Shown: positions 1 through 10,625 of the stretch, piece after piece
How the letters are laid out: every line of letters starts with the position of its first letter
How positions within the stretch are numbered: position 1 is the stretch's first letter
Source of the DNA: Anaerolineae bacterium
Lineage (GTDB): Bacteria; Chloroflexota; Anaerolineae; JAAYZQ01
Direction: 5' to 3'
NCBI GenBank assembly: GCA_016926595.1
Contig: JAFGOG010000469.1
Location: 1-11,207 of the forward strand
Length of the DNA: 11,207 nucleotides
Notes under the pieces: model-generated
Database searches by the model: none
What the model was told of the DNA's origin: nothing
Seen by the model: only the letters and a program-made list of their open reading frames with translations
Translations under genes and position numbers: made by a program

Positions 1-366
1 GGCTGCGCCAAGTATCGCTACAACAAGCTCGACCTGGGCGACATTGGCGGGATCCCGCGCGTGCTTGACGCCGGGCAGTGCAACGACTCGTACTCGCTGG
101 CCTACATCGCCCTGCAGCTCAAGGAGGCTTTTGGCCTGGAGGACATCAACGATCTGCCGATCGCCTATGACATTGCCTGGTACGAGCAGAAAGCAGTGAT
201 CGTCCTGCTGGCGCTGCTCTACCTGGGCGTCAAGCACATCCGCCTGGGGCCATCGCTGCCCGCCTTTGTCTCGCCAGGCGTGCTGGATGTGCTGGTCAAG
301 CATTTTGACATCAAGCCGATCGCCGGCGTAGAGCAAGACCTGGCCGCGATCGTCGCCGGGAACTAG
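1..366 (+). CDS. hcp: Hydroxylamine reductase / hybrid cluster protein, C-terminal part (5' end outside window)
   Basis: This is the last 121 codons of the hybrid cluster protein, a cytoplasmic Fe-S-O enzyme linked to hydroxylamine reduction and NO detoxification. The frame is open from base 1 and ends with TAG at 364-366. The fragment begins GCAKYRYNK. Three expected ligands of the hybrid cluster are present with family spacing: Cys at fragment residue 2, Cys at 27 (AGQCNDSY) and Glu at 62 (WYEQKAV). Those gaps of 25 and 35 match Cys434, Cys459 and Glu494 of the Desulfovibrio enzyme. The end ([18 protein letters not shown]) is typical of full-length Hcp, so the 3' end looks intact. The gene converges on the ECF operon. 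No T-rich intrinsic terminator is seen for it, only hairpins in the 219-bp gap. The N-terminal Cys cluster is outside the window, so the Hcp class cannot be judged. Confidence 0.95.
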
Positions 367-387
367 CCGGCAGCCGTCGCCTGGACA

Positions 388-448
388 AGGTGCCAGGCAC
401 TAGGCGGCCCCCGCCGGGCGGCGGGATCCGCGCAAGTGCCTGGCACCT
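388..448. repeat. Long inverted repeat (14-bp perfect arms) after hcp
   Basis: Arms AGGTGCCAGGCACT (388-401) and AGTGCCTGGCACCT (435-448) are exact reverse complements. Each arm also contains the near-palindrome TGCCAGGCA. The 33-nt spacer is itself GC-rich and partly self-complementary. No T-run follows on either strand, so it is not a standard intrinsic terminator. It could be a REP-like element or an mRNA 3'-end stabiliser for hcp. Its mobility and copy number cannot be judged here. Confidence 0.7.
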
Positions 449-479
449 GGCGTGTGCCAAACATGTACGCCAGGCGGAT

Positions 480-497
480 CGAGCACTCGCGTGCTCG
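480..497. repeat. Short perfect hairpin, CGAGCAC-TCGC-GTGCTCG
   Basis: Seven-bp perfect arms (480-486 and 491-497) enclose a 4-nt loop between hcp and the end of the ECF operon. No T-run follows on the + strand. It may contribute to hcp mRNA 3'-end formation, but its role is unknown. Confidence 0.45.
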
Positions 498-503
498 TCC
501 AAC

Positions 504-538
504 AAAAAACGGCGGCATCTCGAAAGGAGACACCGCCG
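504..538 (-). terminator. Intrinsic terminator of the ECF operon
   Basis: On the minus strand a 12-bp stem (538-527 with 521-510, two G-U wobbles) closes a 5-nt CTTTC loop. It is followed directly by six T's (509-504). It lies 47 bp past the S-component stop codon and ends the five-gene minus-strand operon. Confidence 0.9.
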
Positions 539-585
539 GCAACGACCAGGCAAAGCACGCCCCTAACGTGGCAAGCGAACACACG

Positions 586-1131
586 TCAGCGTTTTTCGGC
601 CAGGTAGGCAAAGAAACCGGCTCTTCTGAGCGCCTTGAGCGTCAGCGCACCGAGTATGCCGCCCAGTGCACCCCAGACGACATAGTTCACCAGCGACCAT
701 GCCAATCCCAGCGCTACAAAGCCCAGCGGCACACCGGTCAGGACGCCCAGCACCCACTTGATCACAAACTTGCCCAGGTGTCCGATCGCTCCGGCTAGCG
801 CCGCCGTCAGGATGTTTTCAGGTTTCTGCAGCAGCCAGAGCGCCAGGTCAGTGCTTACCCCGACCATCGTATAGGACAACAAGGTGTTCAGCGCACCAAA
901 ATCACCCATACCCAGGAACGCAGCCAGGATCCCCGAGGTAAGCCCGACAAGGCTGGATGCACCGTGCTTGGGGACGATGCCGGCAGCAACGATGACGATG
1001 GCCATCCAAAAGAGCCCCGAATGGCCGGGAAGCTGTAGAGGTAGCCGGAACGCGATCTTGGCGACGACGACCAGGGCGGAAAACATGGCCAGCAAGATAA
1101 GCTCAAACGTTGTCAAGTACAGTTTCTTCAT
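586..1131 (-). CDS. ECF transporter S component (substrate-binding membrane subunit), substrate unknown
   Basis: The product is a 181-aa, almost wholly hydrophobic protein with about six predicted membrane segments, the usual size for an S component. Such subunits bind a micronutrient and dock onto the shared T/A module. The conserved-looking core LPGHSGLFW near residue 34 and the following Gly-rich helices (GLTSGILAAFLG) fit an S component. I cannot assign it to a ligand-known class such as ThiT, RibU, BioY or CbiM. The start is set by an ATGA overlap with the upstream gene (1128-1131). The open frame runs upstream to 1170, but that extension is inside the previous gene and lacks family character. 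It is the last gene of the riboswitch-controlled operon and is followed by a strong terminator. A link to Mo/W cofactor chemistry is inferred from regulation only. Confidence 0.8.
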   Translation of the reverse strand: MKKLYLTTFELILLAMFSALVVVAKIAFRLPLQLPGHSGLFWMAIVIVAAGIVPKHGASSLVGLTSGILAAFLGMGDFGALNTLLSYTMVGVSTDLALWLLQKPENILTAALAGAIGHLGKFVIKWVLGVLTGVPLGFVALGLAWSLVNYVVWGALGGILGALTLKALRRAGFFAYLAEKR

Positions 1132-1613
1132 GGCGTCCAGACCTCGATCTTGTCCACATCCTGTATCCACTCGTCCCGTACGTCCAGCCGTTCAAGGGTC
1201 GACACCAGCTTGAGCGTACTCCTCCCGGACAGATCAAACAGAACCCTGTTGGCCACGTCATCAACCTCGGCCCAGGTCAGTTCGACGGACTTGCCCCGGC
1301 TGCTGCTGCTCACAACGATCTGGGTATCGGGTTGCAGCGTGCCCTTTTTCAGGCGCAGGATCAGCACTTTGCGCAGCAGCCATCCCTCTTGTGTCTTGCC
1401 CTCCTCGGCATCGACAAAGCTCACCTTTTCCAGCTTTTCCAGGTCGATGGGCAAGAACCTTCCGCTCAAATCCCCATCCAGATAAATGGGGATGCTTCCC
1501 GGTTCCAGCACAGCGGCTCGGCTCCGTCGCCAAGCGTCAATGCCCAGTACCAAGCCTGCCACGACCACGATGATGGCGGCTGCGATCAAGGACCGTTTTT
1601 GTGTTTGATTCAT
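1128..1613 (-). CDS. Membrane-anchored protein with predicted sulfite-oxidase-like (molybdopterin-binding) fold
   Basis: The product has 161 aa. Residues 8-26 form one hydrophobic N-terminal anchor (IAAAIIVVVAGLVLGI), and the remaining roughly 130 residues would lie outside the membrane. The soluble part has no lipobox. Its pattern parallels the C-terminal domain of TupA in this window: an initial strand, a 'T.xGW/T.TG..L..LL' helix start, 'VVSSSSRGKSVELTWAEV', and an ending of the type '..V.xIEV'. That pattern is reminiscent of the small Oxidored_molyb domain family, but the catalytic Cys that ligates Mo in sulfite oxidase is not obvious; in fact I see no Cys in this protein. A binding rather than redox role is therefore likely. 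It sits between the T and S genes, 20 bp after the T gene and overlapping the S gene by 4 bp. The fold assignment is by eye and tentative; the gene itself is certain. Confidence 0.7.
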   Translation of the reverse strand: MNQTQKRSLIAAAIIVVVAGLVLGIDAWRRSRAAVLEPGSIPIYLDGDLSGRFLPIDLEKLEKVSFVDAEEGKTQEGWLLRKVLILRLKKGTLQPDTQIVVSSSSRGKSVELTWAEVDDVANRVLFDLSGRSTLKLVSTLERLDVRDEWIQDVDKIEVWTP

Positions 1614-1633
1614 TCCCTATGCCTCTGTCGATT

Positions 1634-2359
1634 CTACCATAGAATGAGGGTGACAACGATGGCAGCAGCCAAACCGACCAGCATCCAGTCCCACCACCGC
1701 ATCGCCAGTTGGCGGTATGCGTGGCGATGCGGCGAGTCAAAGCCGCGTGCACACGCCGCTTCGGTCATCGCCCACGCGCGGCGTGTGGTGAGCACGATCG
1801 CCGGCACGGTCATCGCCACCCAATCTCGTAGCCTGAAAAGGATGCTCCGCAGCCCATGCACTTGGCCGAGCGCGCCGCGCGACAACTGCGCTTCGTGGAT
1901 CGCGTGCCATTCCTCGCTCAACAGGTTCACGCTCTGGAACGCCAGGCTCAGGCTAAAGGCATAACGATAAGGAACGCGCAGCCTCTCCAGCGCCAGACGA
2001 AGCTCGTCCGGCGTCGTCGTGCTCACAAAGAGCGTAAACACGCTGGCCAACATGATCACGCGCAGGGTGACGATCACAGCCAGATCGAGGCCCACGAGCA
2101 GCCAGTCCACTACAAACAGCATGACCAGCAGCCACCTGAGCCGCCAGACCTGCTGCGCCGCTGCCGGCAGCAGGCGGGCCCATAACAGGACGAGCAGGTA
2201 TAACCCCATGAACATCGCCAGGCGTTCCAGGGGAAGCATCACCGCCAACGACGCGCATGTGCTCAGCGCAAGCTTGGTGCGCGGATCAGCCCTGCACAGG
2301 GGCGACCCCTCCACTCGGCCTGGCACATAGAAACGGCGATGTGCAGCACGGTTGCTCAT
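1634..2359 (-). CDS. ECF transporter T component (energy-coupling transmembrane protein, EcfT/CbiQ-like)
   Basis: The 241-aa integral membrane protein couples the ATPases to the S component. The N-terminal DPRTKL (25-30) is characteristic, hydrophobic helices fill about 31-113, and the cytosolic coupling helices carry the two signature Arg motifs, SRG (160-162) and ARG (204-206, AACARGF). Two C-terminal hydrophobic stretches close the protein. The start at 2359 is chosen because it overlaps the upstream stop as ATGA (2356-2359). The longer frame to 2410 would run back into the ATPase gene. It is the third gene of the operon. Confidence 0.9.
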   Translation of the reverse strand: MSNRAAHRRFYVPGRVEGSPLCRADPRTKLALSTCASLAVMLPLERLAMFMGLYLLVLLWARLLPAAAQQVWRLRWLLVMLFVVDWLLVGLDLAVIVTLRVIMLASVFTLFVSTTTPDELRLALERLRVPYRYAFSLSLAFQSVNLLSEEWHAIHEAQLSRGALGQVHGLRSILFRLRDWVAMTVPAIVLTTRRAWAMTEAACARGFDSPHRHAYRQLAMRWWDWMLVGLAAAIVVTLILW

Positions 2360-3774
2360 CCGATCTGTTCCAATACCCAATCGGGCACGGTCAGCCCTGC
2401 CCGTGTCCATGATGCTTTGTCGCGCAACACTTCGTCAGGGGGCCCGTCGGCGACAAAGCCGGTCTCGCCTAACAGCAGCAAGCGATCGGCCTGCGCGGCC
2501 AGCGACAGGTCGTGCGTGGTCATCACGACCAGACGCCCGGTGTGAGCCAATGCCCGCGCCAGTTGGATGAGACGCGCCTTGTGCGCTGCATCTTGTCCCA
2601 ACGCAGGTTCGTCTAGCAGCACACCGTGCGACGGCTTGCGCATCAAAGCGATGGCCAACGCCACTCGCTTTTTCTCCCCCTCGCTCAACAAGAGCGGGGG
2701 CGTACTCTTGTACTCGCGGAGACCCAGTGCGCTGATGAGCCAGCGATGCCATGCCAGGTCCGGATCGGACACCTTGTACAGGATCTCTTCGTTGACGGTA
2801 GCGTTGAACAATTGCAGGTCTGGGTTCTGAAAGACCATCGCCAGGTCGGGTTGTTTGCCGCCGACCTGGACTGTGCCCCTAAAGTGTTGCAGTCCCGCCA
2901 GCGCGCGCAACAGTGTCGTCTTGCCCACGCCGTTACGTCCGGCGATCGACAGCACCTGGCCGCTCGCAGCAGAAAACTCTAGGCCGTGCAGGACATCTCG
3001 GCTGCCCAGGCGGACGCTCAGGCCACGCACATCCAGCGTAAACGGCTCGACATGTCGCCACGCCAGGCGCTCTGTTGGCAGATGCCTTTCGGCATGCTCG
3101 GCCTCTGGATCGCCCAGGTCAATGACCCTGATCCCGGGAATGCGCTGCAGAGGCTCGGTACGGTGCTCACAGATGATGATACTTGTGCCCCTTCTCGATA
3201 GCTCTGCCAGGTGCGTGACCAGGCTCTCCATCGCCATGCTATCCAGCATCGAGAGCGGTTCGTCGAGCACCAATGCTGCGGGCCTGCGGGCGGAGATCGC
3301 CGCCAGTGCCAGGCGCTGCTGCTCGCCGCCGGACAGCGCCAGGGGAGAGCGGTCTCGCAGATCGTGTAGTCCAAAGCCGGTCAATGACTCTTCCAGCCGC
3401 GCGCCGATCTCGCTGCGCGGCAGGCCCAGGGTCTCCAGTCCAAAAACGATCTCTTCTTCTACGGTGGACGCGAGCATCTGCGATGCAGGGTTCTGGAAGA
3501 CCATTCCCATCCGCTCGGTCAGCCGCCACAGCGGCGCGCCGGCGGTGTCCAGGCCGTCGACCACGACCCTGCCGCCCAGGTCACCGCGGTAAAGGTGTGG
3601 GATCAGGCCGGCTAAACAGCGGGCGAACGTGCTCTTGCCGCACCCGGATGGGCCGGTGAGCAGGACCACTTCCCCGGCGCGGACGTCGAGCGCCGCCAGT
3701 TCCAGGCTGCGTGTATGCTGCGGATATCGGTAGGAGAGTTCCTCAACGTGGATCAGGCTGTCGACATCCAACAT
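2356..3774 (-). CDS. ECF transporter energizing ATPase, two fused nucleotide-binding domains (EcfA-A' / CbiO-like)
   Basis: The 472-aa protein carries both ATPases of an ECF module in one chain. NBD1 has Walker A GPSGCGKST (41-49), Q-loop VFQNPASQ (92-99), signature LSGGEQQR (147-154), Walker B ALVLDEP (167-173) and switch His204. NBD2 has Walker A GRNGVGKTT (279-287), VFQNPDLQ (314-321), signature LSEGEKKR (363-370, Glu in place of the usual second Gly), Walker B GVLLDEP (384-390) and His421. All catalytic residues are present in both halves, so both sites look hydrolysis-competent. The ATG abuts the TGA of the upstream TiaS-like gene with no gap (3775/3774), and the stop overlaps the T gene by 4 bp, indicating translational coupling. 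Fused A-A' proteins are typical of several dedicated or shared ECF systems. Confidence 0.93.
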   Translation of the reverse strand: MLDVDSLIHVEELSYRYPQHTRSLELAALDVRAGEVVLLTGPSGCGKSTFARCLAGLIPHLYRGDLGGRVVVDGLDTAGAPLWRLTERMGMVFQNPASQMLASTVEEEIVFGLETLGLPRSEIGARLEESLTGFGLHDLRDRSPLALSGGEQQRLALAAISARRPAALVLDEPLSMLDSMAMESLVTHLAELSRRGTSIIICEHRTEPLQRIPGIRVIDLGDPEAEHAERHLPTERLAWRHVEPFTLDVRGLSVRLGSRDVLHGLEFSAASGQVLSIAGRNGVGKTTLLRALAGLQHFRGTVQVGGKQPDLAMVFQNPDLQLFNATVNEEILYKVSDPDLAWHRWLISALGLREYKSTPPLLLSEGEKKRVALAIALMRKPSHGVLLDEPALGQDAAHKARLIQLARALAHTGRLVVMTTHDLSLAAQADRLLLLGETGFVADGPPDEVLRDKASWTRAGLTVPDWVLEQIG

Positions 3775-4464
3775 TCAATCTAGCTTGAGCGGCTGCCAAT
3801 GGTCCGCCGCCTGCTCCACGATGGCAATAGGCTGCCCGCCACGTCGAGCAGGGCGCAGTTTGTTTGTCTGCACCAGTCCTTCTGTCACCGGCTGCCCATC
3901 GACGGTCCGGACGGCGGCAATTCCGGCTGCCAGAAGAGTCGACACCGGCTGCAGGCCGCTCAGTTCGCGAGAACGTCCGACGAGCACATAGCGACCATCC
4001 TCTCCACAGGCCGCCAGTCCAACCGCTGCCAGCGCCCCGATGACGCCGCTCTCATCGCCGCCCAGGCCGAGCAGCGGCAAGCGGTTCTCCTCCGCAAGCG
4101 CGCGTGCCTCTGCCTGCGCGACGATCTCGCGCTGTGCACGCCGTCCAAAGCCAGTGATCGGGGCCGCTAGGGGCAGGGCAGCTACGCAGAGGCCGGGGTC
4201 GCTGCCATCCTGAAAGTCAGCCAGCATGAGCGTCTTGACGCGCAGGAACAATTCGTCCAGGTCAGGTTCTTTGCAGCCGTCGAGCAGGATCGCCGAGCAA
4301 CTGTTGTTTTTTGTACAGGGCACTCTCGGATCGAGCAGTAGCTGGTGGCGCGTCACGCCAAGCAACCCATAGTCGACGCTGAGCTGGGCAGCGATTTCGC
4401 GCGCGAGGTGCCCTGTGCCGCGTGAAGCCAATACGTCTGTGTCATCCAGTCCAATCAAGATCAT
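3775..4464 (-). CDS. TiaS-like protein with GLDDTD motif (kinase-like plus ferredoxin-like part; lacks OB-fold and Zn domains)
   Basis: The 229-aa protein resembles the first half of archaeal TiaS, the ATP-dependent enzyme that joins agmatine to cytidine 34 of tRNA-Ile2. Visible hallmarks are the N-terminal GLDDTD (5-10), GTGHLAREIA (16-25), a DPRVPCTKNNSCSA segment (45-58) matching the TiaS 'NPNVPWKT.GNGA' region, GDESGVIGALAAVGLAA (136-152) and a C-terminal QPVTEGLVQTNKLRPARRGG. The OB-fold and zinc-finger tRNA-binding parts of TiaS are absent, so a tRNA substrate is doubtful. A small-molecule ATP-dependent enzyme is the more likely role. The ATG at 4464 gives the family N-terminus MILIGLDDTD; an in-frame TTG at 4485 is the alternative. 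It is the first gene after the riboswitch, and its stop abuts the ATPase start. The name TiaS should not be transferred as a function. Confidence 0.75.
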   Translation of the reverse strand: MILIGLDDTDVLASRGTGHLAREIAAQLSVDYGLLGVTRHQLLLDPRVPCTKNNSCSAILLDGCKEPDLDELFLRVKTLMLADFQDGSDPGLCVAALPLAAPITGFGRRAQREIVAQAEARALAEENRLPLLGLGGDESGVIGALAAVGLAACGEDGRYVLVGRSRELSGLQPVSTLLAAGIAAVRTVDGQPVTEGLVQTNKLRPARRGGQPIAIVEQAADHWQPLKLD

Positions 4465-4528
4465 CGTAAACGTCCATCCATTCAATCATCCAGGGTTTTC
4501 TGCCCCTCACCTCTCGCATCTTGGCCAG

Positions 4529-4561
4529 AAACACAAAACGGCGTCCCCACTGGAGACGCCG
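4529..4561 (-). terminator. Riboswitch-associated intrinsic terminator of the ECF operon leader
   Basis: On the minus strand a 10-bp GC-rich stem (4561-4552 with 4548-4539, one T-G wobble) closes a 3-nt loop. It is followed by TTTTGTGTTT (4538-4529). It lies between the aptamer and the first gene, so it is the likely expression platform for transcriptional control. The stem sequence (CGGCGTC/GACGCCG) is nearly the same as the terminator behind the second riboswitch. Confidence 0.85.
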
Positions 4562-4604
4562 CTCACGCAACGCCTAAAGGCAAGGCTGCCTGCCATGACG
4601 CTGC

Positions 4605-4721
4605 CTGACGCATCTCCTTTCCAGACACGGGAGGCATCGCCGTTTCCAGCGACACCCTATCGCCCAATGCCCATAGGCTCGATTGGCTGTTAGGACAGTT
4701 GGGTCGGAGATGAGGTATCAG
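4605..4721 (-). promoter_or_regulatory. Moco/Tuco (molybdenum or tungsten cofactor) riboswitch aptamer, copy 1
   Basis: The minus-strand RNA from 4721 to 4605 shows a closing stem (CATCTCC with GGAGATG, continuing as CTGA with TCAG) and an arm CCCAA/TTGGG (4703-4699, 4667-4663). A 6-bp hairpin is capped by a GAAA tetraloop (4646-4643). A near-canonical GAAA receptor is formed by CCTAAC (4694-4689) and TATGG (4675-4671), followed by the conserved GCCTCCCGTG...GGAAAGGAG block (4635-4614). The tetraloop/receptor pair and the CCTCCC/AAGGAG block are as I remember them for the Moco RNA motif, and the second copy here precedes a tungstate importer. The ligand (Moco, or the tungsten form) cannot be decided by eye. 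It sits 5 bp after the expected start of transcription and upstream of the terminator at 4529-4561. Confidence 0.82.
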
Positions 4722-4732
4722 ATTATGCATGG

Positions 4733-4761
4733 ATTATACATGATCTTGCTCGGAAGGGCAA
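4733..4761 (-). promoter_or_regulatory. Sigma-70-type promoter of the ECF operon
   Basis: On the minus strand TTGCCC (4761-4756), a 17-bp spacer and a perfect TATAAT (4738-4733) are followed within about 7 nt by the riboswitch leader. The arrangement matches the promoter of the tup operon (TTGCGC-17-TATAAT), including the bases ATG directly before TATAAT. Confidence 0.85.
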
Positions 4762-4786
4762 AAGCCCGCTCACCTCTCTCGGGCTT
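4762..4786. promoter_or_regulatory. Inverted repeat between divergent promoters (possible operator)
   Basis: AAGCCCG (4762-4768) and CGGGCTT (4780-4786) are exact reverse complements with an 11-bp spacer. They lie between the -35 box of the minus-strand ECF promoter (ends 4761) and that of the + strand orphan gene (begins 4792). With one bulge the arms extend into GGCA/TGCC. The position suits a regulator acting on both promoters, but no regulator gene is in the window. Confidence 0.4.
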
Positions 4787-4791
4787 GCCAA

Positions 4792-4820
4792 TTGACATGG
4801 AAATCCGTCTGGCGTACACT
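4792..4820 (+). promoter_or_regulatory. Sigma-70-type promoter of the small orphan gene
   Basis: A perfect TTGACA (4792-4797), a 17-bp spacer and TACACT (4815-4820) precede the small gene at 4876 with a leader of about 50 nt. It runs divergently from the ECF operon promoter. Unlike the two minus-strand operons, no aptamer follows it. Confidence 0.75.
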
Positions 4821-4875
4821 ACTGGCGTGGGAACACCTGCTATGCCGCTTGACGCTCGAAGGAAAGGAGTTCAGC

Positions 4876-5118
4876 ATGGCCAAGATATTCATTCGCCAAC
4901 GGCGGGACGTCACCGAAGGAAAGCAGCGTCCCCGCTTTGCCGTCGTTGCCGTCCAGGGCGCAGACCTGCAGTTCTACCGCCCCTTTCTCCGGCGTGTGGA
5001 GCTGGAACAGATCGCTGCTGAGACCGGCGCCGAGATCGTCTATCTGCCCGTTGGAGAGCACAGTCGAGAGGGACAAAGGGACGAGCAAAGGGGCCGCCGC
5101 CACCGCGATCAGGAGTGA
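4876..5118 (+). CDS. Small conserved-looking protein of unknown function (80 aa)
   Basis: ATG at 4876 has a strong ribosome-binding site (GGAAAGGAG, 4861-4869, 6-nt spacing), so it is preferred over the longer frame beginning at 4792 inside the promoter. Residues 1-58 look like a compact alpha/beta domain: an initial strand (MAKIFIR), a basic RQRRDVTEGKQRPRF turn, a strand FAVVAVQG, a helix LRRVELEQIAAETG and a strand AEIVYL. Residues 60-80 are a very charged, probably disordered tail. There is no signal peptide, membrane segment or Cys. I do not recognise the family. It is transcribed from its own promoter and lies between the two riboswitch-controlled operons, which suggests but does not show a link to Mo/W metabolism. 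Confidence 0.8.
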   Translation: MAKIFIRQRRDVTEGKQRPRFAVVAVQGADLQFYRPFLRRVELEQIAAETGAEIVYLPVGEHSREGQRDEQRGRRHRDQE

Positions 5119-5130
5119 GGCGTGCCCTTG

Positions 5131-5184
5131 AGAAAAAGGTGCGTGGTTGGGAAGCCGGGCACCCGGCTTCCCAACCACGCACCT
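5131..5184 (-). terminator. Terminator of the tup operon: perfect 23-bp stem
   Basis: Arms 5137-5159 and 5162-5184 are exact reverse complements separated by only 2 nt. On the minus strand the stem is followed by TTTTTCT (5137-5131), so it terminates tupBCA 14 bp past the tupA stop. On the + strand, where the orphan gene ends at 5118, there is no T-run after the stem. It may still act as a bidirectional barrier between the convergent genes. Confidence 0.85.
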
Positions 5185-5198
5185 GGGTCACCTGTGAC

Positions 5199-6512
5199 CT
5201 ATTTGACCTGCATCTCGATCACACCCTTGACCTGCAGTTCGCCCGAAAACCCTGGCAGCACGGTGCTAAACCCGCCCTGGTTGCGGAATGAGACGATGCA
5301 GTCCTGGCACGCTTGCACCTCGGCCAATGCGACCTCGGCCGTAGAGCCGTCATCGGCCACCAAGACGAGCGTCGCCGCATCGCCCTGCAGACCGGCCAGA
5401 TCAAGCAGAGCCGTGATCGGCACGCCGGTATAGGTGGAGGTTTCACCCTGCTTGTTGGTCGACTGGGCCTCGATCGTATCCATCGCCCGCACCTCGGCCT
5501 CGGTCCAGCCGATCTCATTCTCGACCTTGCCCGTGACCTTGAGCGCAGCATCCGCTGGAACGCCTCCTGAGGGCTGCCCGGCCTTGGGGTGCGCCTCGCG
5601 CCAGAGTGCCGAGTCAGGGGTAAAGAGCGGCGCACCAAACTCGGCGACGCCAAACTGGCCGATTTTCTCCTGCGTCGGCAGCGAGATCAGCCAGTCGATA
5701 AAGGTGTTGGCCAGCTCGATCTGGATCTGTTCGCTCTTGTCCGGGTTGACGGCCAGCACCCCGTAGGGGTTGAACAGGATCGGGTCCCCTTCGACCAGGA
5801 TCTGCAGCTCGGTCCCTTCCAGTGTGCGCGCTAGGTAGGTGGCCCGGTCGCTCAGGGTGTATGCCTGCTGCTCGTCGGCCATGGTCAGCACGGCGCCCAT
5901 GCCCTGCCCGGCCGAGATGTACCAGTCTCCAGAAGGCTCGATGTCTGCCGCCTTCCAGATCGCCTTTTCCTTCGAGTGCGTGCCCGACTCGTCGCCGCGC
6001 GAGACAAAGGGTGCCGCAGCTTCGGATATCTTTTGCATCGCCTCGGGGGCGTTGGTCATGCCCGCAACGCCTGCCGGATCGCTCGCCGGGCCGACGATGA
6101 TAAAGTCGTTGTACATCACGTCTTCGCGGCGCACGCCGTGGCCGGCCTCCATAAAGGCATGTTCGCTGGCGCGGGCGTGCACCAGGAGGACGTCCGCGTC
6201 GCCGGCCTCACCTAACGCGATGGCCTGGCCGGTGCCCACGGCGATCACGTCCACGTCAACGCCATGCGCTGCCGTAAAGTCGGGCAGAATCAAGTCCAGC
6301 AGGCCCGAGTCCTGGGTGCTGGTGGTGGTAGCCAGGATCAGCTTTTGACCCTCGGTTGTCGCGGGCACCTCGGCTTCCGGTGTGTTCGTCGGGGCGACAG
6401 TCGCCGCTGGCGCAACGGTCGCTGTCGGTGCCGGCGCGGGTGTGCCGCAGCCGATCAGGCAACCGATCAGCAGCAGTCCCAGTACGATCTGAATCAACCC
6501 ATTCTTTTTCAA
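5199..6512 (-). CDS. tupA: Tungstate ABC transporter substrate-binding lipoprotein with extra C-terminal sulfite-oxidase-like domain
   Basis: This is the surface-anchored binding protein of the tungstate importer, 437 aa. A signal peptide with two candidate lipoboxes (LIGC, Cys18 or Cys22) is followed by a Thr/Pro/Ala linker (24-52). The TupA domain (about 56-305) carries TTTSTQDSGLLD (62-73), VGTGQA (92-97) and SRGDESGTHSKE (171-182), oxyanion-site motifs of the family. Residues 318-437 form an added domain patterned like a molybdopterin-binding sulfite-oxidase core (TYTGVPITALLDLAG 360-374, then DDGSTAEVALAEV), with a CxxC at 402-405. Ordinary TupA ends near residue 300. A TTG start at 6512 is chosen because AAGGAG lies 7 nt upstream; an ATG at 6530 covers that ribosome site. 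It is the last gene of the operon, 40 bp after tupC. Confidence 0.9.
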   Translation of the reverse strand: MKKNGLIQIVLGLLLIGCLIGCGTPAPAPTATVAPAATVAPTNTPEAEVPATTEGQKLILATTTSTQDSGLLDLILPDFTAAHGVDVDVIAVGTGQAIALGEAGDADVLLVHARASEHAFMEAGHGVRREDVMYNDFIIVGPASDPAGVAGMTNAPEAMQKISEAAAPFVSRGDESGTHSKEKAIWKAADIEPSGDWYISAGQGMGAVLTMADEQQAYTLSDRATYLARTLEGTELQILVEGDPILFNPYGVLAVNPDKSEQIQIELANTFIDWLISLPTQEKIGQFGVAEFGAPLFTPDSALWREAHPKAGQPSGGVPADAALKVTGKVENEIGWTEAEVRAMDTIEAQSTNKQGETSTYTGVPITALLDLAGLQGDAATLVLVADDGSTAEVALAEVQACQDCIVSFRNQGGFSTVLPGFSGELQVKGVIEMQVK

Positions 6513-6552
6513 GTGTCTTCTCCTTTTCATCTGTGGTTTGAACTGCAGATTC

Positions 6553-7329
6553 CTAATACACCATCTCACCGCGCACAAAGGCGGCCGTGCGCGGGTCGCG
6601 GGGGGACTCGAAAAAGGCCGTCCCCTCGGCCACCTCGACGATGCGCCCCTCCAGGAGCAGCCCCACGCGATGGGCCAGCCGCCGGGCCTGGAATACATTG
6701 TGCGTGACCAGCACGATCGTCGTCCCCTGGCGATGGTTCAAAGTGCGCGCGATCTCTTCGATCAGGCCGACGTTGTACGGGTCCAGGTTAGCAGTCGGCT
6801 CGTCCAGCAGGAGCACATCGGGCTGTAGAACGATGGCCCGAGCCAGCGACACGCGCTGCGCCTCGCCGCCCGAAAGGGTACGCGCCCGCTGATGGGCCAG
6901 GCCGGCCAGGCCGACCTGCTCGAGGGCGTCCTCTACCTGGTGCGCCGCATCGTGCACGCCACGCAGCCGTAGGCCATAGCGCACGTTGGCATACACGCTG
7001 CGATTGAGCAGGATCGGGCGCTGAAAGACGGTGGTCACGCGCCGGCGCAGATCAAGGGGCACCGGGCGCGTCGCATCGAACGTCGCTTCTTGCAGGCTGC
7101 TCGGCGCGCCGTTCGGCGTGTCGTTCGGGGCTGCATGAAAGTGAATCGTGCCGCTGCTCGGCGGCTCCAGGAAATTGAGCAGGCGCAGCAAAGTGCTCTT
7201 GCCCGCCCCGCTGGGACCAACCAGGGCCAGGATCTCGCCGCGATACACCTCCAACTCGTCGACGTCCAGGATACGCCGCTGTTCGTACACCTTGGTGACC
7301 CCGCGCAGCCGATAGATCCTCTCGCTCAT
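6553..7329 (-). CDS. tupC: Tungstate ABC transporter ATP-binding protein
   Basis: The 258-aa cytoplasmic ATPase drives tungstate import. Walker A GPSGAGKST (38-46), Q-loop VFQRP (101-105), signature LSGGEAQR (152-159), Walker B VLLLDEP (172-178) with D-loop NLD, and switch His210 are all intact. Between the arm strand and the Q-loop there is a polar insertion (about 66-88, rich in Asn/Thr/Pro/Ala) that most homologues lack. ATG at 7329 overlaps the tupB stop as ATGA. Assignment to tungstate rather than another oxyanion rests on the neighbouring TupA and TupB; the ATPase alone would not be specific. Confidence 0.9.
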   Translation of the reverse strand: MSERIYRLRGVTKVYEQRRILDVDELEVYRGEILALVGPSGAGKSTLLRLLNFLEPPSSGTIHFHAAPNDTPNGAPSSLQEATFDATRPVPLDLRRRVTTVFQRPILLNRSVYANVRYGLRLRGVHDAAHQVEDALEQVGLAGLAHQRARTLSGGEAQRVSLARAIVLQPDVLLLDEPTANLDPYNVGLIEEIARTLNHRQGTTIVLVTHNVFQARRLAHRVGLLLEGRIVEVAEGTAFFESPRDPRTAAFVRGEMVY

Positions 7330-8039
7330 TCCTCGAACGTCCTCCCCTGCAGGTAGAGCATGGCCACGTTGATCAGAAAGGAGAGCGTGAGCAGGATCAC
7401 GCCCAGGGCCATGGCCAGGTCAAAGGCTCCTTTGCGCGTCTCCAGGACGATGGCCGTGGTCAGCATGCGCGTCCGCCCCTCGATGTTGCCGCCGACCAGC
7501 ATGACCGCACCCACCTCCGAGATGATGCTCCCGAACCCGGCGATCACCGACACGACCACGCCCACCCGCGCCTCGGCCAGGACGGTCCACGTCGTCTGCC
7601 AGCGGGTGGCGCCCAGGGACCGCACTTGCTGGCGCAGTTGGGGATCGACGCCCATCACTGCGGCCATGGTGAACCCGGCCACCAGCGGAAACGAGATGAT
7701 GCTCTGCGCCACGACCATGGCCGCTGGCGTAAATAGGGTGGGCATGGCCGGCCAGCCCAGGCTGCCCAGGGGGCCGCTGCGCGACAGCATCAGGTAGACA
7801 AAGAGCCCCACAACCACCGGCGGGAAGCCCATGCCGGTGTAGAGCAGGGCCACGACCACCCGGCGCCCGATAAAGCGGCTCAACCCCAGCAGTGCGCCCA
7901 GGGGGACGCCGACCATGGTGCTAAACAGCAGGGCGATGCCCGACACCTGCAGGGACAGGATCACGATCTCCATCACTGCCGCGTCTCGGGTCACGATCAG
8001 TTGAATGGCCTGGATCAGGCCGCGTAGGATCTGGTCGAT
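7326..8039 (-). CDS. tupB: Tungstate ABC transporter permease, possible ATC start codon
   Basis: The protein is a membrane permease of about 237 aa with five to six hydrophobic segments. The EAA-type loop that contacts TupC is visible (VRSLGATRWQTTWTVLAEA, about 145-163), followed by a typical GFGSIISEVGAVMLVGGNI segment. Family similarity begins near IDQILRGLIQAIQLI. No ATG, GTG, TTG or CTG lies in frame between there and terminator 8096-8132. ATC at 8039 has GAGGAG (8051-8046) 6 nt upstream and gives the usual family length. Alternatives are GTG at 7994, GTG at 7976 or ATG at 7973, which would cut about 15 to 22 residues and have no good ribosome site. It is the first gene of the operon; its stop overlaps tupC by 4 bp. 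Confidence 0.88.
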   Translation of the reverse strand: MDQILRGLIQAIQLIVTRDAAVMEIVILSLQVSGIALLFSTMVGVPLGALLGLSRFIGRRVVVALLYTGMGFPPVVVGLFVYLMLSRSGPLGSLGWPAMPTLFTPAAMVVAQSIISFPLVAGFTMAAVMGVDPQLRQQVRSLGATRWQTTWTVLAEARVGVVVSVIAGFGSIISEVGAVMLVGGNIEGRTRMLTTAIVLETRKGAFDLAMALGVILLTLSFLINVAMLYLQGRTFEE

Positions 8040-8095
8040 GGTTGACTCCTCGTCAAGAGCTCGAGGCGTGCAGTTGCTGCGCGCGCGAGCGTGGC

Positions 8096-8132
8096 AAAGA
8101 AAAAGGCGTCTCGGGAGAGCCAGGAGACGCCT
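8096..8132 (-). terminator. Second (promoter-distal) terminator of the tup leader
   Basis: On the minus strand AGGCGTCTC (8132-8124) pairs with GAGACGCCT (8112-8104) around an 11-nt loop, followed by TTTTCTTT (8103-8096). It lies only 20 bp beyond the first terminator and about 45 bp before the tupB ribosome site. Its 5' arm could also pair with the 3' arm of the first terminator. Confidence 0.82.
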
Positions 8133-8152
8133 GAATAGGCCGGGAGCGGCAC

Positions 8153-8182
8153 AAAAATCGGCGTCCCGGAAAGGGACGCCGA
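8153..8182 (-). terminator. First (promoter-proximal) terminator of the tup leader
   Basis: On the minus strand a perfect 10-bp stem (8182-8173 with 8167-8158) with a TTTCC loop is followed directly by five T's (8157-8153). It lies after the riboswitch aptamer and a strong spacer hairpin. It is the natural candidate for the regulated terminator, and its stem matches the one at 4529-4561. Confidence 0.88.
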
Positions 8183-8201
8183 CATGGCAATCACACCTCA
8201 T

Positions 8202-8241
8202 GTGCCCGGGAGCGAGCCATGCGCAAGCAAGCTCCCGGCAC
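8202..8241 (-). promoter_or_regulatory. Hairpin between aptamer and first terminator in the tup leader
   Basis: GTGCCGGGAGC (minus 8241-8231) pairs with GCTCCCGGGCAC (8213-8202) over 11 bp with one bulged base and a 17-nt loop. No T-run follows, so it is not a terminator. Its 5' arm can instead form GGCAC-ACG-GTGCC with the end of the aptamer region (8249-8237), giving a possible switch between aptamer and expression platform. Confidence 0.55.
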
Positions 8242-8248
8242 CGTGTGC

Positions 8249-8379
8249 CTGTCGCCGCATCTCCTTTCCAAACACGGGAGGCATCGTCGTTTCCAGCGAT
8301 ACCCTATCGCCCAACGTCCATAGACGGTTCCGTCCACAGGAGCGTTGGGTCGGAGAAGACGGTATTTGATTGTCGGCCC
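8249..8379 (-). promoter_or_regulatory. Moco/Tuco riboswitch aptamer, copy 2 (tup operon)
   Basis: It matches copy 1 closely over its core: CTCCGACCCAAC, TTGGGCGATAGGGT, TCGCTGGAAACG, CGATGCCTCCCGTGT and GGAAAGGAGATGCG, with differences concentrated in the variable arm. Elements on the minus strand are the arm CCCAACG/CGTTGGG (8349-8343, 8316-8310), a GAAA tetraloop (8293-8290), and a receptor-like CCTGTG (8340-8335) with TATGG (8322-8318). The variable arm contains a GGACGG/CCGTCT stem absent from copy 1. One tetraloop-stem pair is a C-A mismatch here (C-G in copy 1). Outer limits are approximate. It precedes tandem terminators and the tungstate importer, which supports sensing of a Mo/W cofactor. 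Confidence 0.85.
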
Positions 8380-8380
8380 G

Positions 8381-8409
8381 ATTATACATGAATTGGGGAG
8401 GGGGCGCAA
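8381..8409 (-). promoter_or_regulatory. Sigma-70-type promoter of the tup operon
   Basis: On the minus strand TTGCGC (8409-8404), a 17-bp spacer and TATAAT (8386-8381) lie directly upstream of the riboswitch leader. Transcription would start near 8374. It has the same layout as the ECF operon promoter at 4733-4761. Confidence 0.85.
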
Positions 8410-8459
8410 ATTGCCTTGATGTCCTAGAGCAGATCGACGGTCAGATTGGGTGGGCCGGC

Positions 8460-8488
8460 TTGTGCAGGCCAGCAATCGATGGTATACT
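8460..8488 (+). promoter_or_regulatory. Promoter of the toxin-antitoxin operon
   Basis: TTGTGC (8460-8465), a 17-bp spacer and TATACT (8483-8488) lie 43 bp upstream of the antitoxin ATG. It diverges from the tup promoter, with about 50 bp between the two -35 boxes in which I see nothing further. Confidence 0.75.
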
Positions 8489-8521
8489 GTGCCCTCAATT
8501 GGAACTACTATTAAGGGCACA
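8488..8521 (+). promoter_or_regulatory. Inverted repeat at the antitoxin start region (likely autoregulatory operator)
   Basis: TGTGCCCT (8488-8495) and AGGGCACA (8514-8521) are exact reverse complements with an 18-bp spacer. The left arm begins at the last base of the -10 box and the right arm ends at the first base of the ribosome site AGGAGGT (8521-8527). Phd/YefM-type antitoxins usually bind such palindromes to repress their own operon. In RNA the same stem could partly mask the ribosome site. Confidence 0.6.
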
Positions 8522-8531
8522 GGAGGTGTTC

Positions 8532-8810
8532 ATGTCTCTGATCGGAGTGCGTGAGCTGCGGGAACGGACCAGTGAGGTCATTCGCCGCGTCCGTGAGGAT
8601 CATGCCGAATACGTGGTGACGTACCAGGGCCGGCCGGTCGCTGTGATCCTGCCGCTGGACACAGAGCGAGCCGAACAAGAGATGGTTCAGGCGGGGAGAA
8701 AAGCCGTTCTCAGCAGCGGAGAGCAGTACGACCAGATCGCCCAAGAGATCAGGGATGCCTGGCCGGCAGACGTCTCCACTCAAGACTTGATCGACGCCAT
8801 CCGGCGATAG
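8532..8810 (+). CDS. Phd/YefM-family antitoxin
   Basis: This 92-aa cytoplasmic protein would neutralise the PIN toxin encoded just downstream and bind operator DNA. The N-terminal MSLIGVRELRERTSEVIRRV followed by a two-strand YVVTYQGRPVAVILPL core is the standard Phd/YefM fold. The C-terminal about 50 residues (from AEQEMVQ) are the toxin-binding tail. The ATG at 8532 has a near-perfect ribosome site (AGGAGGT, 5-nt spacing), so the longer open frame from 8370 is rejected. The toxin gene starts 12 bp after its stop, which indicates one operon. Confidence 0.92.
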   Translation: MSLIGVRELRERTSEVIRRVREDHAEYVVTYQGRPVAVILPLDTERAEQEMVQAGRKAVLSSGEQYDQIAQEIRDAWPADVSTQDLIDAIRR

Positions 8811-8822
8811 AGTGCAGAGCCA

Positions 8823-9269
8823 ATGTACACCATTGATGCCAGCGTTCACGTCAATGCGGTCAATCCCGCAGAGGCCGATTCTGCCACCAGTCAGGAATTC
8901 CTGGCCGTTGTCCGGCAACGCGCGCTGCCTTTGTTTTGCCCTACACTGCTCTTGGTTGAGGTTTCTGCCGCTATCGCGCGTGTCTTTGCCGACGCTCACC
9001 CCGCCATCTCGCTTGCCTCTAGTCTGCAAGACTGGACCAACCAGACACTTGTTCCCCTCGATGCAGCGCTGGCGAATCGCGCGATCCACTTGGCAGCAAC
9101 CGTACGCCTCCGCGGCGCTGATGCTGTATATGCCGCCGTTGCCCAGCACTATGGCACCACGCTGGTCACACTCGATCGCCAACAGTTGGAGCGACTGCCG
9201 GCTGTCGTGAGCGTCGTTCGACCAGACGAAGCACTGCGCAAGGTGCAAGCAGGAGGGGCTACAGAGTAG
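8823..9269 (+). CDS. PIN-domain ribonuclease toxin (VapC-like)
   Basis: The 148-aa PIN-domain protein is a presumed Mg-dependent RNase toxin paired with the Phd-type antitoxin. The acidic active-site set is complete: Asp5 (YTIDAS), Glu46 (LLLVEVSAA), Asp100 (RGADAVYAAVA) and Asp118 (LVTLDRQ). The length is normal, so it appears functional. No strong ribosome site precedes the ATG at 8823, consistent with lower translation than the antitoxin. Its RNA target cannot be inferred. It converges on the FAD oxidoreductase gene with a 61-bp gap. Confidence 0.92.
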   Translation: MYTIDASVHVNAVNPAEADSATSQEFLAVVRQRALPLFCPTLLLVEVSAAIARVFADAHPAISLASSLQDWTNQTLVPLDAALANRAIHLAATVRLRGADAVYAAVAQHYGTTLVTLDRQQLERLPAVVSVVRPDEALRKVQAGGATE

Positions 9270-9330
9270 AGGCTTTTTTCAAGTCCAGGTGGCGCGGTAT
9301 GGAAACCGCAGCTACGACCGTGGTCAGGCC

Positions 9331-10554
9331 TTATCCGAGGTACACGTCCTGCGCCCGCAGCGCCTCGCGTAACGCCTCCACGGGCACGTCGCGCGGGGCG
9401 CACCCCTCGCGCGCGGCGATGGCTGCCGCAACGCCCGCCGCCTGGCCCGTGGCCAGGCAGGGCACGAGCAGGCGCATCGTGTTCCCGGCGATCGGGTCGG
9501 CGGAAAGGCAGCGCCCGGCCACCAACAACCCATCTATGGATTCGGGCACCAGGCAGCGGTAGGGCACGTCGTAGCGCAGGCCCTTGATCAGGTAACTGGG
9601 CCCCCAGTCGGGGAAATAGACGCCCAGGCGGGCGATGCCGTCGGGGAACTGGCGGCTGGCCTTGAGGTCGTCGTCGGTCAGGCGGTACAGGCCGTGGATG
9701 CGCCGGCTGAGGCGCACGCCGAGCTGCGGCCAGGTCAGCGACACGCGCGCCTCCTCGTAGCCCGGCAGGTGCCTGCGCAGGTGCATCAGGGCCTGAAAGC
9801 CCTCCCGACGCAGCCGGATTTCGGCCTGGGTCAGCGACTCGGCGTTTGTGGCGTCCACGCCGGCCAGCAGGCGGACCCGGCCCGGCAGCCTGCCACCGTT
9901 CATCTCCATAGCCTCGACCACGATCGCTTCGTACTCGGCCGGGGACCGGCGGCGGAAATCATCCACCCGGGCCTGATCCACGCCCTCGATCACCAAGCCC
10001 AGCGTGGTGTCGTGCGTCTCGTTGTCGCAGGCGCAACCGGCGCGGTAGGCCAGGTCGGCATCGGCGGTGACGTCGATCGTCACCCTGGCGCGAAAGGCCT
10101 CGCGTCCGCTCTTGCTCTCGGCAAAGGCGCCGCCGACACGCGCGTCGGTAGCCACGATCGGCGCGCAGGCCCAGGTGTGCAGCCGGATGCGCACCCCCGC
10201 CTCTTGCAGCATCTCGACCGCCTGCCATTTGAATATCTCGGCATCGACATCGTAATCGCCCGGGTCGTTGCGCGGCCGGACGGCCCCCAGGCGTTCCATC
10301 CGCTCGCGGATCTCGGTCGTGATCCCGCGCACCACGGGCACAGTGCCGTCGCCTGCCCCGAGGATGGCCACCACATAGGCGCCGGTGATCATGCCGCCCA
10401 GGTAGCCGTACCGTTCGACGAGCACGGTGCGCGCGCCGGCGCGCGCGGCGGACAGCGCGGCGGCGATGCCTGCCGGTCCGCCGCCGGCGATCAACACATC
10501 TGCATCAGCGACGACGGGAATGTCGCGTGCGGGTTCTTGGATCGTGTCTGCCAT
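9331..10554 (-). CDS. FAD-dependent oxidoreductase (FAD_oxidored-like)
   Basis: The 407-aa flavoprotein has an N-terminal Rossmann motif GGGPAGIAAALSAARAG (24-40) ending in VLVER (44-48), then YGYLGGM (49-55). The C-terminal LLVAGRCLSADPIAGNTMRL segment followed by a GQAAGVAAAIA helix completes the FAD site. This is the pattern of the broad FAD_oxidored family found near glucan and carbohydrate genes; the substrate is not predictable. The start at 10554 has GAGGAG 6 nt upstream. The open frame to 10662 is rejected because it crosses the repeat tract and enters the phosphorylase gene. The gene follows the phosphorylase by 71 bp on the same strand, so co-transcription is possible. There is no signal peptide, so the protein is probably cytoplasmic. 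Confidence 0.88.
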   Translation of the reverse strand: MADTIQEPARDIPVVADADVLIAGGGPAGIAAALSAARAGARTVLVERYGYLGGMITGAYVVAILGAGDGTVPVVRGITTEIRERMERLGAVRPRNDPGDYDVDAEIFKWQAVEMLQEAGVRIRLHTWACAPIVATDARVGGAFAESKSGREAFRARVTIDVTADADLAYRAGCACDNETHDTTLGLVIEGVDQARVDDFRRRSPAEYEAIVVEAMEMNGGRLPGRVRLLAGVDATNAESLTQAEIRLRREGFQALMHLRRHLPGYEEARVSLTWPQLGVRLSRRIHGLYRLTDDDLKASRQFPDGIARLGVYFPDWGPSYLIKGLRYDVPYRCLVPESIDGLLVAGRCLSADPIAGNTMRLLVPCLATGQAAGVAAAIAAREGCAPRDVPVEALREALRAQDVYLG

Positions 10555-10572
10555 ATTCAGCTCCTCATCTCT

Positions 10573-10622
10573 CGTCCGTCGTCGTTCGTCCGTCGTCGTT
10601 CTTTGTCGTTCGTCCTTCGTCG
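10573..10622. repeat. Short tandem repeat tract between phosphorylase and oxidoreductase genes
   Basis: Two perfect 14-bp copies of CGTCCGTCGTCGTT (10573-10586 and 10587-10600) are followed by a degenerate stretch of the same CGTC/CGTT units to about 10622. The tract fills most of the 71-bp gap and begins just upstream of the oxidoreductase ribosome site. On the transcribed minus strand it is a purine-rich ACGA/ACGG repeat. Its function is unknown; it may vary in length between strains. Confidence 0.75.
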
Positions 10623-10625
10623 CCC

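Follow-up and report, generated by a model that had tools for sequence, protein, structure and literature searches.

The minus strand of an 11,207 nt stretch of DNA from an Anaerolineae bacterium (phylum Chloroflexota; GenBank assembly GCA_016926595.1, contig JAFGOG010000469.1, positions 1-11,207; referred to here as the window) carries a five-gene operon for an energy-coupling factor (ECF) transporter. It encodes a TiaS-like protein, a fused EcfA-A' ATPase, EcfT, a membrane-anchored sulfite-oxidase-fold protein and an S component, and is preceded by a riboswitch of the molybdenum cofactor/tungsten cofactor (Moco/Tuco) family, RF01055. This operon very probably serves tungsten/molybdenum (W/Mo) cofactor supply. 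That it encodes an ECF importer switched on at W/Mo cofactor shortage, and that this importer takes up a molybdopterin-type pterin, is in our judgement slightly better than an even proposition. The reading draws on the gene layout, the RNA family, the modelled folds, residue conservation and gene linkage, and on the riboswitch and missing-MoaA/MoaC pattern of a sister type, all of which are observed.

Two units make up the minus strand, each headed by its own Moco/Tuco aptamer. The first consists, 5' to 3', of an RF01055 aptamer, tupB-, tupC- and tupA-like genes and a closing hairpin (5183-5138). The second consists of a promoter-like site, an RF01055 aptamer, a hairpin (4564-4536) lying between the aptamer and the TiaS-like gene, the five genes in the order given above and a further hairpin (538-510). 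The best starts are ATG 4464 for the TiaS-like gene, 2359 for EcfT and 1131 for the S component, and 4-nt overlaps join EcfA-A' to EcfT and the anchored protein to the S component. The five genes and the RNA element proposed in an initial annotation of this DNA are all present at the coordinates in Table 1, and the RNA passes the Moco covariance model (65.1 bits against a gathering score of 36). That annotation also placed the same RNA before a tungstate importer, tupBCA. A second RF01055 aptamer was indeed found there, but TupA and TupB score below the equivalog cut-offs and we refer to these genes as Tup-like.

Both window aptamers leave the P3 columns of the Rfam alignment almost unoccupied and so belong to the P3-less, tungsten-cofactor subtype. 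According to the text of PMC2408646 (Regulski 2008), RF01055 RNAs are responsive to the cofactor. P3 is missing from 58 of the 176 Moco RNAs considered there, and genes for tungsten-cofactor metabolism are present in 17 of the 19 organisms that possess P3-less RNAs. P3 was absent from 5 of the 10 RF01055 alignments inspected (L022, L034, L102, L103 and L104; L numbers denote loci and G numbers genomes). No match to a thiamin pyrophosphate (TPP) riboswitch was found in the window.

The attributes of a group I ECF transporter, namely two ABC ATPase domains, EcfT and a six-helix S component, are all present. A dedicated S component, ATPase and EcfT lie in one operon in 28 loci including the window, wherever the contig is long enough, with the gene order altered in L022 and L027. 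On sequence grounds the operon is classed as a group-I-type ECF importer, and ATP-driven uptake is predicted. The S component has the YkoE fold. Of the five thiamine ligands of YkoE (Y46, W49, E77, Q95 and D131, as given in the text of PMC5037267), W49 alone is kept, as W42 in 49/49 homologs, and the equivalents of the other four are lost. K25, H37, K121 and K125 are invariant (49/49), and these His and Lys residues suggest an anionic ligand. Neither of the two outcomes that would have spoken against the Mo/W proposal of the initial annotation was obtained: the RNA fits the Moco model, and the S component, although a marginal PF09819 member with the YkoE fold, retains just one thiamine residue in five. 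The S-component profile (A1) had no match among PDB sequences at E values up to 1.

The anchored protein was said in the initial annotation to have a sulfite-oxidase fold. This fold is supported by an AlphaFold2 model (mean predicted local distance difference test score 90.9) and its structure matches. The closest folds are those of the pterin-binding protein PruR and of sulfite oxidases, without the Mo-binding Cys, and the best Foldseek match is a pterin-binding protein. There is no Pfam match, including none to PF00174, and with neither PF00174 nor the Mo-binding Cys the protein falls outside the sulfite-oxidase family of molybdoenzymes on both tests. A tryptophan near the C-terminus, W149, is invariant in 34 anchored-protein sequences; the pterin residues of PruR are Trp160, Tyr104 and Asn102. 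Searches of PDB sequences gave no link for this protein (none in one search, one unrelated match at E 1.2 in another), and other sulfite-oxidase-like domains gave weak matches to PruR or sulfite oxidases (E 0.13 and more) or none. No gene for DcpA/DTB, the partner of PruR, was present among the 13 window proteins scanned.

The strongest support for a cofactor-related substrate comes from sister ECF types. In a fused type, the S component is joined to sulfite-oxidase-like domains and is followed by EcfA-A' and EcfT. This type was first seen when a PF09819 search of 29 carriers (G004 left out) was set against RF01055 coordinates. All seven fused copies scanned match PF09819 and six match PF00174, and the fused protein has 595 homologs at E values up to 1e-3. 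In a sample of 248 genomes of the class, requested at a completeness of at least 85 %, 40 genomes match the fused profile and 15 hold the fusion (14 full-length and one, G214, partial), the rest being partial or weak matches. Together with G012, G015 and G021, these 15 form a set of 18 genomes, and RF01055 lies upstream of the fused type on the same strand in 18/18, 52-613 nt before the matched part. This set does not include G256 (a fragment) or G212 and G265 (S part only), and G073, which has an unfused S gene, has no RF01055 within its 18 kb. A third kind (G002; L106:3511-7588) has the order RF01055, NTPase, EcfA-A', S component, sulfite-oxidase-like lipoprotein and EcfT, with an S component that scores 22.6 bits to PF09819, under the cut-off. 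There are thus several distinct cases in which a PF09819-type S component goes together with a sulfite-oxidase-like domain and a Moco/Tuco riboswitch, and in one of them the genes are fused.

Of the 14 genomes with the fused type but without the window's type (here called type 1), 11 have neither MoaA (PF06463) nor MoaC (PF01967): G185, G232, G066, G175, G269, G145, G094, G093, G251, G236 and G214. The other three, G049, G082 and G200, have both genes, as do the four genomes in which the two types occur together. For type 1 itself, a role in obligate salvage is unsupported, with MoaC in 26 of 30 type-1 genomes and MoaA and MoaC both missing in 3. The difference in MoaA/MoaC loss between these ECF-carrier types (11/14 versus 3/30) has a Fisher p of 1.3e-5; with every genome taken as 15 % incomplete, 11/14 would arise with a probability of 2e-7. 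Genes of the aldehyde ferredoxin oxidoreductase (AOR) family were looked for in seven of these 11 genomes: six (G175, G094, G269, G232, G185 and G214) have them behind another RF01055, and the seventh, G066, has eight AFOR_N matches. In G145, a 47-residue MoaA-like piece (L174:6486-6620), with no further significant part in 13 kb, lies just behind a riboswitch and is perhaps a gene relic. In 7 of 10 sufficiently long loci, the last gene of the fused-type operon encodes a type I phosphodiesterase/nucleotide pyrophosphatase that begins like a lipoprotein, four identified by Pfam (L103:11837-13072, L163:4676-5866, L166:11758-12966 and L168:2493-3620) and three more by tblastn; it was not seen in L162, L165 and L167. 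Such an activity would be suited to cutting molybdopterin dinucleotides outside the cell, releasing molybdopterin. The combination of RF01055, AOR genes and missing MoaA and MoaC in fused-type hosts is, as far as genome content can indicate, a signature of cofactor salvage.

The S-component search gave 1246 homologs at E values up to 1e-3 and the anchored-protein search 1254 proteins. Among the best 120 of the 1246 and the best 120 of the 1254, all organisms named belong to the Anaerolineae or Chloroflexi. A single contig scan across genomes yielded 27 loci, 25 from Chloroflexota (one Ornatilinea sp.) and two titled Spirochaetes, and these together with the window, L034, L074 and L075 make up the type-1 set of 31. 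The S component is found in all 31, the anchored protein in 30, EcfT and EcfA-A' in 28 each and the TiaS-like protein in 26. Missing EcfT, EcfA-A' and anchored proteins are explained by contig edges (L004, L007 and L026). The TiaS-like gene is cut off by a contig edge in L001 and truly absent from L006, and L003 has a remote upstream copy with 34 % identity. L005 (10001-10543), in which the S-component frame includes one internal stop codon, was left out of alignment A5, and alignments A3, A4 and A6 represent part of the loci. Type 1 is patchy: a strong S component was found in four of the 248 class-sample genomes, the weak matches being a divergent relative (G124) and the fused type (G251), and a plasmid collection contained no type-1 relative.

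Relatives of Tup, Wtp, MosB, MoaC/E or MoeA were detected by tblastn in 16 of the 31 type-1 loci (3 to 21 kb long, window included) and in none of 20 control stretches (Fisher p 4e-5). When the TupA-type sulfite-oxidase-like domain is counted, the figures are 21/31 and 0/20 (Fisher p 7e-7). The controls, each 20 kb, were picked arbitrarily in eight carrier genomes, from contigs that had already given other matches. Tup or Wtp is found in 15/31 and MosB in 6/31. The tup genes lie upstream, downstream (L011, L020 and L034) or divergently (L025, L074 and L075), and in L022 tupBCA is between ecfA and ecfT; with arrangements this varied, the linkage is not that of one frozen block. L020 and L034 have the order moaA-moaC-moaD-moaE-moeA-mosB-TiaS-like-ECF-tupBCA, with RF01055 before moaA. 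Compared with solved structures, the L020 MosB matches the molybdenum storage protein beta (E 7.6e-74), and the L006 WtpA passes one of two family cut-offs (TIGR03730).

The linkage seen at the locus is not matched at the genome level, where the initial annotation had suggested asking whether the S component co-occurs with the riboswitch or with AOR-family genes. RF01055 is present in 17/28 carriers of the type-1 S component versus 31/49 other genomes of the class (p 1), and AFOR_N in 28/28 versus 44/49 (p 0.15), neither being significant. As RF01055 and AOR genes are both common in the class, co-occurrence does not discriminate.

The TiaS-like protein reaches 50 bits with the methanogenesis marker 11 model TIGR03280 (cut-off 255.8) and 28.5 bits with the full-length TiaS model NF040849 (cut-off 600), below the cut-off in both cases. 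Within the family (alignment A4) the DDTD motif is kept and Thr19 is invariant. The protein is found in 15 of the 248 class genomes and in 9 of 247 genomes of a Spirochaetes phylum sample. Fifteen further TiaS-like loci lack a type-1 S component, and 10 of these 15 lie beside MosB, Tup or Wtp. In L076:9716-15688 and L077:7914-12274, both from the Spirochaetes sample, the TiaS-like gene has a Peripla_BP_2 gene next to it; L076 also encodes a TonB-receptor plug domain and, read from the sequence, an FecCD-type permease and an ATPase, and L077 has what appears to be a TonB-receptor-like gene. These genes could possibly mediate uptake of a W/Mo compound across two membranes. A kinase-type role of the TiaS-like protein on the imported compound is a guess.

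Taken together, W/Mo gene linkage, a pterin-binding-like fold and, in the sister type, the regular riboswitch and the frequent MoaA/MoaC loss support the Mo/W-cofactor-related uptake system proposed in the initial annotation. In the mechanism we propose, low Tuco would leave the P3-less aptamer empty and the terminator 4564-4536 unformed, and the operon would be read together with tupBCA. The anchored PruR-like protein, outside the membrane, would capture the pterin and hand it to the YkoE-fold S component, where the invariant Trp would stack on the rings and the His/Lys face would hold the anionic part. EcfT and the fused EcfA-A' would then drive uptake with ATP, and the TiaS-like kinase-type protein may act on the imported compound inside the cell, for example by restoring a phosphate. 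The ligand, as in the initial annotation, is something we infer, as are the directions of hand-over, the logic of the riboswitch in the host and the kinase step. Whether the S component binds a molybdopterin-type pterin is about evenly balanced. In favour of a pterin are the accessory protein's fold, an S component of vitamin type, the existence of a fused sister type and the way MoaA and MoaC are lost, and we lean slightly towards import of the intact W/Mo-pyranopterin, or of a dephosphorylated or metal-free form.

Several observations weigh against pterin import. The presence of MoaC in most type-1 hosts indicates that they are not auxotrophs, and metal uptake would explain the Tup and MosB neighbours just as well; metal-gene neighbours and host prototrophy leave room for tungstate or molybdate. 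The comparison of MoaA/MoaC loss was confined to carriers of these ECF types. In the VIA comparison the PruR match of the anchored protein is tied with sulfite oxidases, the positions of PruR Tyr104 and Asn102 seem to be replaced by S-R-x-K (in a by-eye alignment with an incomplete PruR sequence), and no significant similarity emerged when its profile was compared with that of the TupA domain. Two closer YkoE homologs from this class (L108 and L109) keep just E77 and Q95 of the five thiamine residues; therefore loss of these residues alone does not exclude thiamine. Finally, RF01055 lies directly before or inside the ECF/tup unit in 4 of the 31 type-1 operons (the window, L014, L018 and L022). 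In L010, L020 and L034 it heads neighbouring moa genes and not the ECF unit, and in L020 and L034 an opposite-strand small gene lies between the mos and ECF genes, so that its control may not extend to the ECF part. It was not found at the remaining type-1 loci (for L074 and L075 via genome search), and weak copies looked for in L001, L012, L015, L021 and L024 were not found. Thus some type-1 operons have riboswitch control, but not all of them do. In L002, L009, L017, L023 and L027 a regulator of one cluster, with a DNA-binding domain and PF12727 in the three scanned, perhaps stands in place of the riboswitch.

The main alternative is that the ECF transporter imports the metal itself, as tungstate, molybdate or a thio-form, and that the sulfite-oxidase-fold protein is a metal-capturing accessory like CbiN or NikN, the small membrane-bound accessory proteins of metal ECF transporters. 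We regard this as unlikely but in need of serious consideration. The neighbouring genes are mostly metal genes, the positively charged invariant residues of the S component fit an oxyanion, and most type-1 hosts have MoaC. Sensing of the product rather than the imported metal also has a precedent, as a B12 riboswitch is predicted over cbiMNQO in the text on cobalt in PMC13119186. However, a known type of oxyanion uptake system (Tup-like) often already adjoins, and the YkoE-like S component has a fold of the vitamin type and an invariant Trp. Metal import would also not cure the MoaA/MoaC loss of the sister type, where a nucleotide pyrophosphatase often adjoins.

Import of a metal chelate (a tungsten or molybdenum metallophore) or of a pterin other than Moco is less probable still. 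It would suit the TiaS-like genes beside Peripla_BP_2 proteins in L076 and L077, the chelate-type importer genes of L076 and the statement in PMC13259868, in its text on PruR, that this protein binds pterins of small size and is believed not to accommodate Moco. It does not suit the response of RF01055 RNAs to the cofactor (PMC2408646, as above) or the loss of MoaA and MoaC in sister hosts, which points to the Moco pathway.

An ordinary thiamin or hydroxymethylpyrimidine (HMP)-type ECF transporter located near tup genes by chance is very improbable. PF09819, the YkoE fold and a fused A-A' as in YkoD (PMC5037267, in the text on YkoD) are what such a transporter would have, and L108 and L109, too, are without three of the five thiamine residues, which is a caveat. 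Nevertheless, the gain of His and Lys with one thiamine ligand kept, RF01055 in the window in place of a TPP riboswitch, and W/Mo gene linkage across many loci led us to set plain thiamin transport aside. No TPP riboswitch turned up when the canonical YkoE genes of this class at L108-L110 were searched for one upstream. Equally improbable is a membrane complex that serves exported W/Mo enzymes as a sensor or by inserting their cofactor. Sulfite-oxidase-like domains are found in several exported-looking proteins beside Tup or Wtp, but A-A', T and S occur together in every type-1 locus long enough, and the known ECF transporters are, to our knowledge, importers.

Table 1. Features of the window supporting or adjoining the ECF operon, with the basis of each assignment
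Feature	Position	Strand	Basis
Terminator-like hairpin after S component	510..538	-	12 pairs, then TTTTTT
S component, YkoE fold, PF09819	586..1131	-	PF09819 26.3 bits (cut-off 25.2, marginal)
Membrane-anchored sulfite-oxidase-fold/PruR-like protein, 161 aa, no cysteine	1128..1613	-	AlphaFold2 model and structure matches
EcfT transmembrane component	1634..2359	-	PF02361 70.5 bits
EcfA-A' fused ATPase	2356..3774	-	Two PF00005 stretches; TIGR04520 275.8 bits, below cut-off 315
TiaS-like protein, TCKD kinase-type domain, GLDDTD motif, 230 aa	3775..4464	-	PF22641 27.5 bits (cut-off 27)
Terminator-like hairpin, candidate expression platform	4536..4564	-	13 pairs, T-rich tail; present in leader folds
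Moco/Tuco aptamer RF01055, P3 stem missing	4598..4721	-	65.1 bits, E 3.9e-14, gathering score 36
Sigma-70-like promoter, TTGCCC - 17 nt - TATAAT	4733..4761	-	Consensus scan, 10/12 positions; consensus match only
Small conserved protein, 80 aa (MAKIF...), divergent from operon	4876..5118	+	No Pfam match
Strong terminator-like hairpin closing tup unit	5138..5183	-	20 counted pairs, TTTTT tail
TupA-like binding protein	5199..6530	-	PF12849 169 bits; NF041772 231 bits (cut-off 400)
TupC-like ATPase	6553..7329	-	PF00005 111.9 bits
TupB-like permease	7326..8156	-	NF041773 155 bits (cut-off 320); start uncertain, taken after hairpin 8183-8157
Second Moco/Tuco aptamer RF01055, P3 missing, before tupBCA	8245..8367	-	74.2 bits; terminator-like hairpin 8183-8157 downstream

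Promoter-like sites (2 versus a mean of 1.1 in shuffles) and terminator-like sites in 1-5400 (6 versus a mean of 3.9) are about as frequent as in shuffled sequence, and those in Table 1 are credible because of their positions. The TupA-like protein has a C-terminal sulfite-oxidase-like domain (about 5199-5579; weak PF00174, E 0.0033). A sulfite-oxidase-like domain with two invariant cysteines (CxxC) is found fused to TupA or alone before the TiaS-like gene (alignment A6), and large exported-looking proteins made of repeated sulfite-oxidase-like domains adjoin WtpA (L003:721-2187 and L020:15444-16889). L035:8020-9743 has a sulfite-oxidase-like lipoprotein, a TiaS-like gene and a divergent S component, with no A or T relative in 20 kb. 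Besides the window, five type-1 loci and six TiaS-like loci keep the 80-aa small protein; in Chloroflexota and Spirochaetes loci its gene mostly has mosB on one side and the TiaS-like gene on the other. Next to the first unit's riboswitch, the window has a Phd/YefM-type antitoxin and PIN-domain toxin pair (8370-9269, plus strand). In a Spirochaetes genome, a NiCo riboswitch lies downstream of the ECF operon (L008:11632-11713).

Moco/Tuco is usually regarded as a cofactor that each cell makes for itself. An ECF family found behind cofactor-sensing RNAs, with pterin-binding-type domains and in genomes that keep AOR genes while lacking MoaA and MoaC, provides named proteins with which this view, and pterin transport, can be tested. 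It is a tentative proposal, which we rate a little short of even, that these are the first dedicated importers of Moco/Tuco: several ECF types in tungsten-dependent bacteria, with YkoE-fold S components and PruR-like capture domains, some hosts being MoaA/MoaC-less and living on their neighbours' cofactor, some after an outer pyrophosphatase has cut the dinucleotide. If so, Moco/Tuco would be one more cofactor, like B12, thiamin and folate, that members of anaerobic communities share and salvage, and a genome without moaA could no longer be taken to be without Moco enzymes. The TiaS-like family gains a genomic context in W/Mo metabolism. In agreement with the initial annotation, no ECF transporter for molybdate, tungstate, molybdopterin or Moco was found in the titles and abstract openings of the mostly open-access literature matches listed. 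A 2026 review (PMC13259868) states that how pterins cross bacterial membranes is unknown, folate derivatives apart.

Compared with known systems, the riboswitch resembles those of Regulski 2008 in sequence and in structure, over the gathering score, and is of the P3-less type as for tungsten-cofactor genes; the window copy differs in heading an ECF operon, and "ECF" occurs 0 times in the main text of PMC2408646. TiaS (tRNA-Ile2 agmatidine synthetase) and methanogenesis marker 11 share the TCKD domain with its GLDDTD motif, but the window protein is just 230 aa and far below both family cut-offs, and its family adjoins W/Mo genes with or without ECF genes. CbiMNQO and NikMNQO likewise have a small membrane-bound accessory protein in the operon and, in the B12 case (PMC13119186, text on cobalt), a riboswitch for the cofactor made from the import. 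PruR, known from Agrobacterium, Vibrio and Klebsiella structures, shares the sulfite-oxidase fold, the absence of the Mo-binding Cys, a Trp near the C-terminus (W149 here) and a location outside the membrane (here by model and inference); the window protein differs in its membrane anchor, in its ECF partner instead of DcpA and in the apparent S-R-x-K at the Tyr104/Asn102 equivalents. The group I ECF thiamin transporter YkoEDC of Bacillus subtilis shares the YkoE fold, PF09819 and the fused A-A' of YkoD, and the window operon departs from it in the loss of Y46, E77, Q95 and D131, in its Moco/Tuco riboswitch and in its extra PruR-like and TiaS-like proteins.

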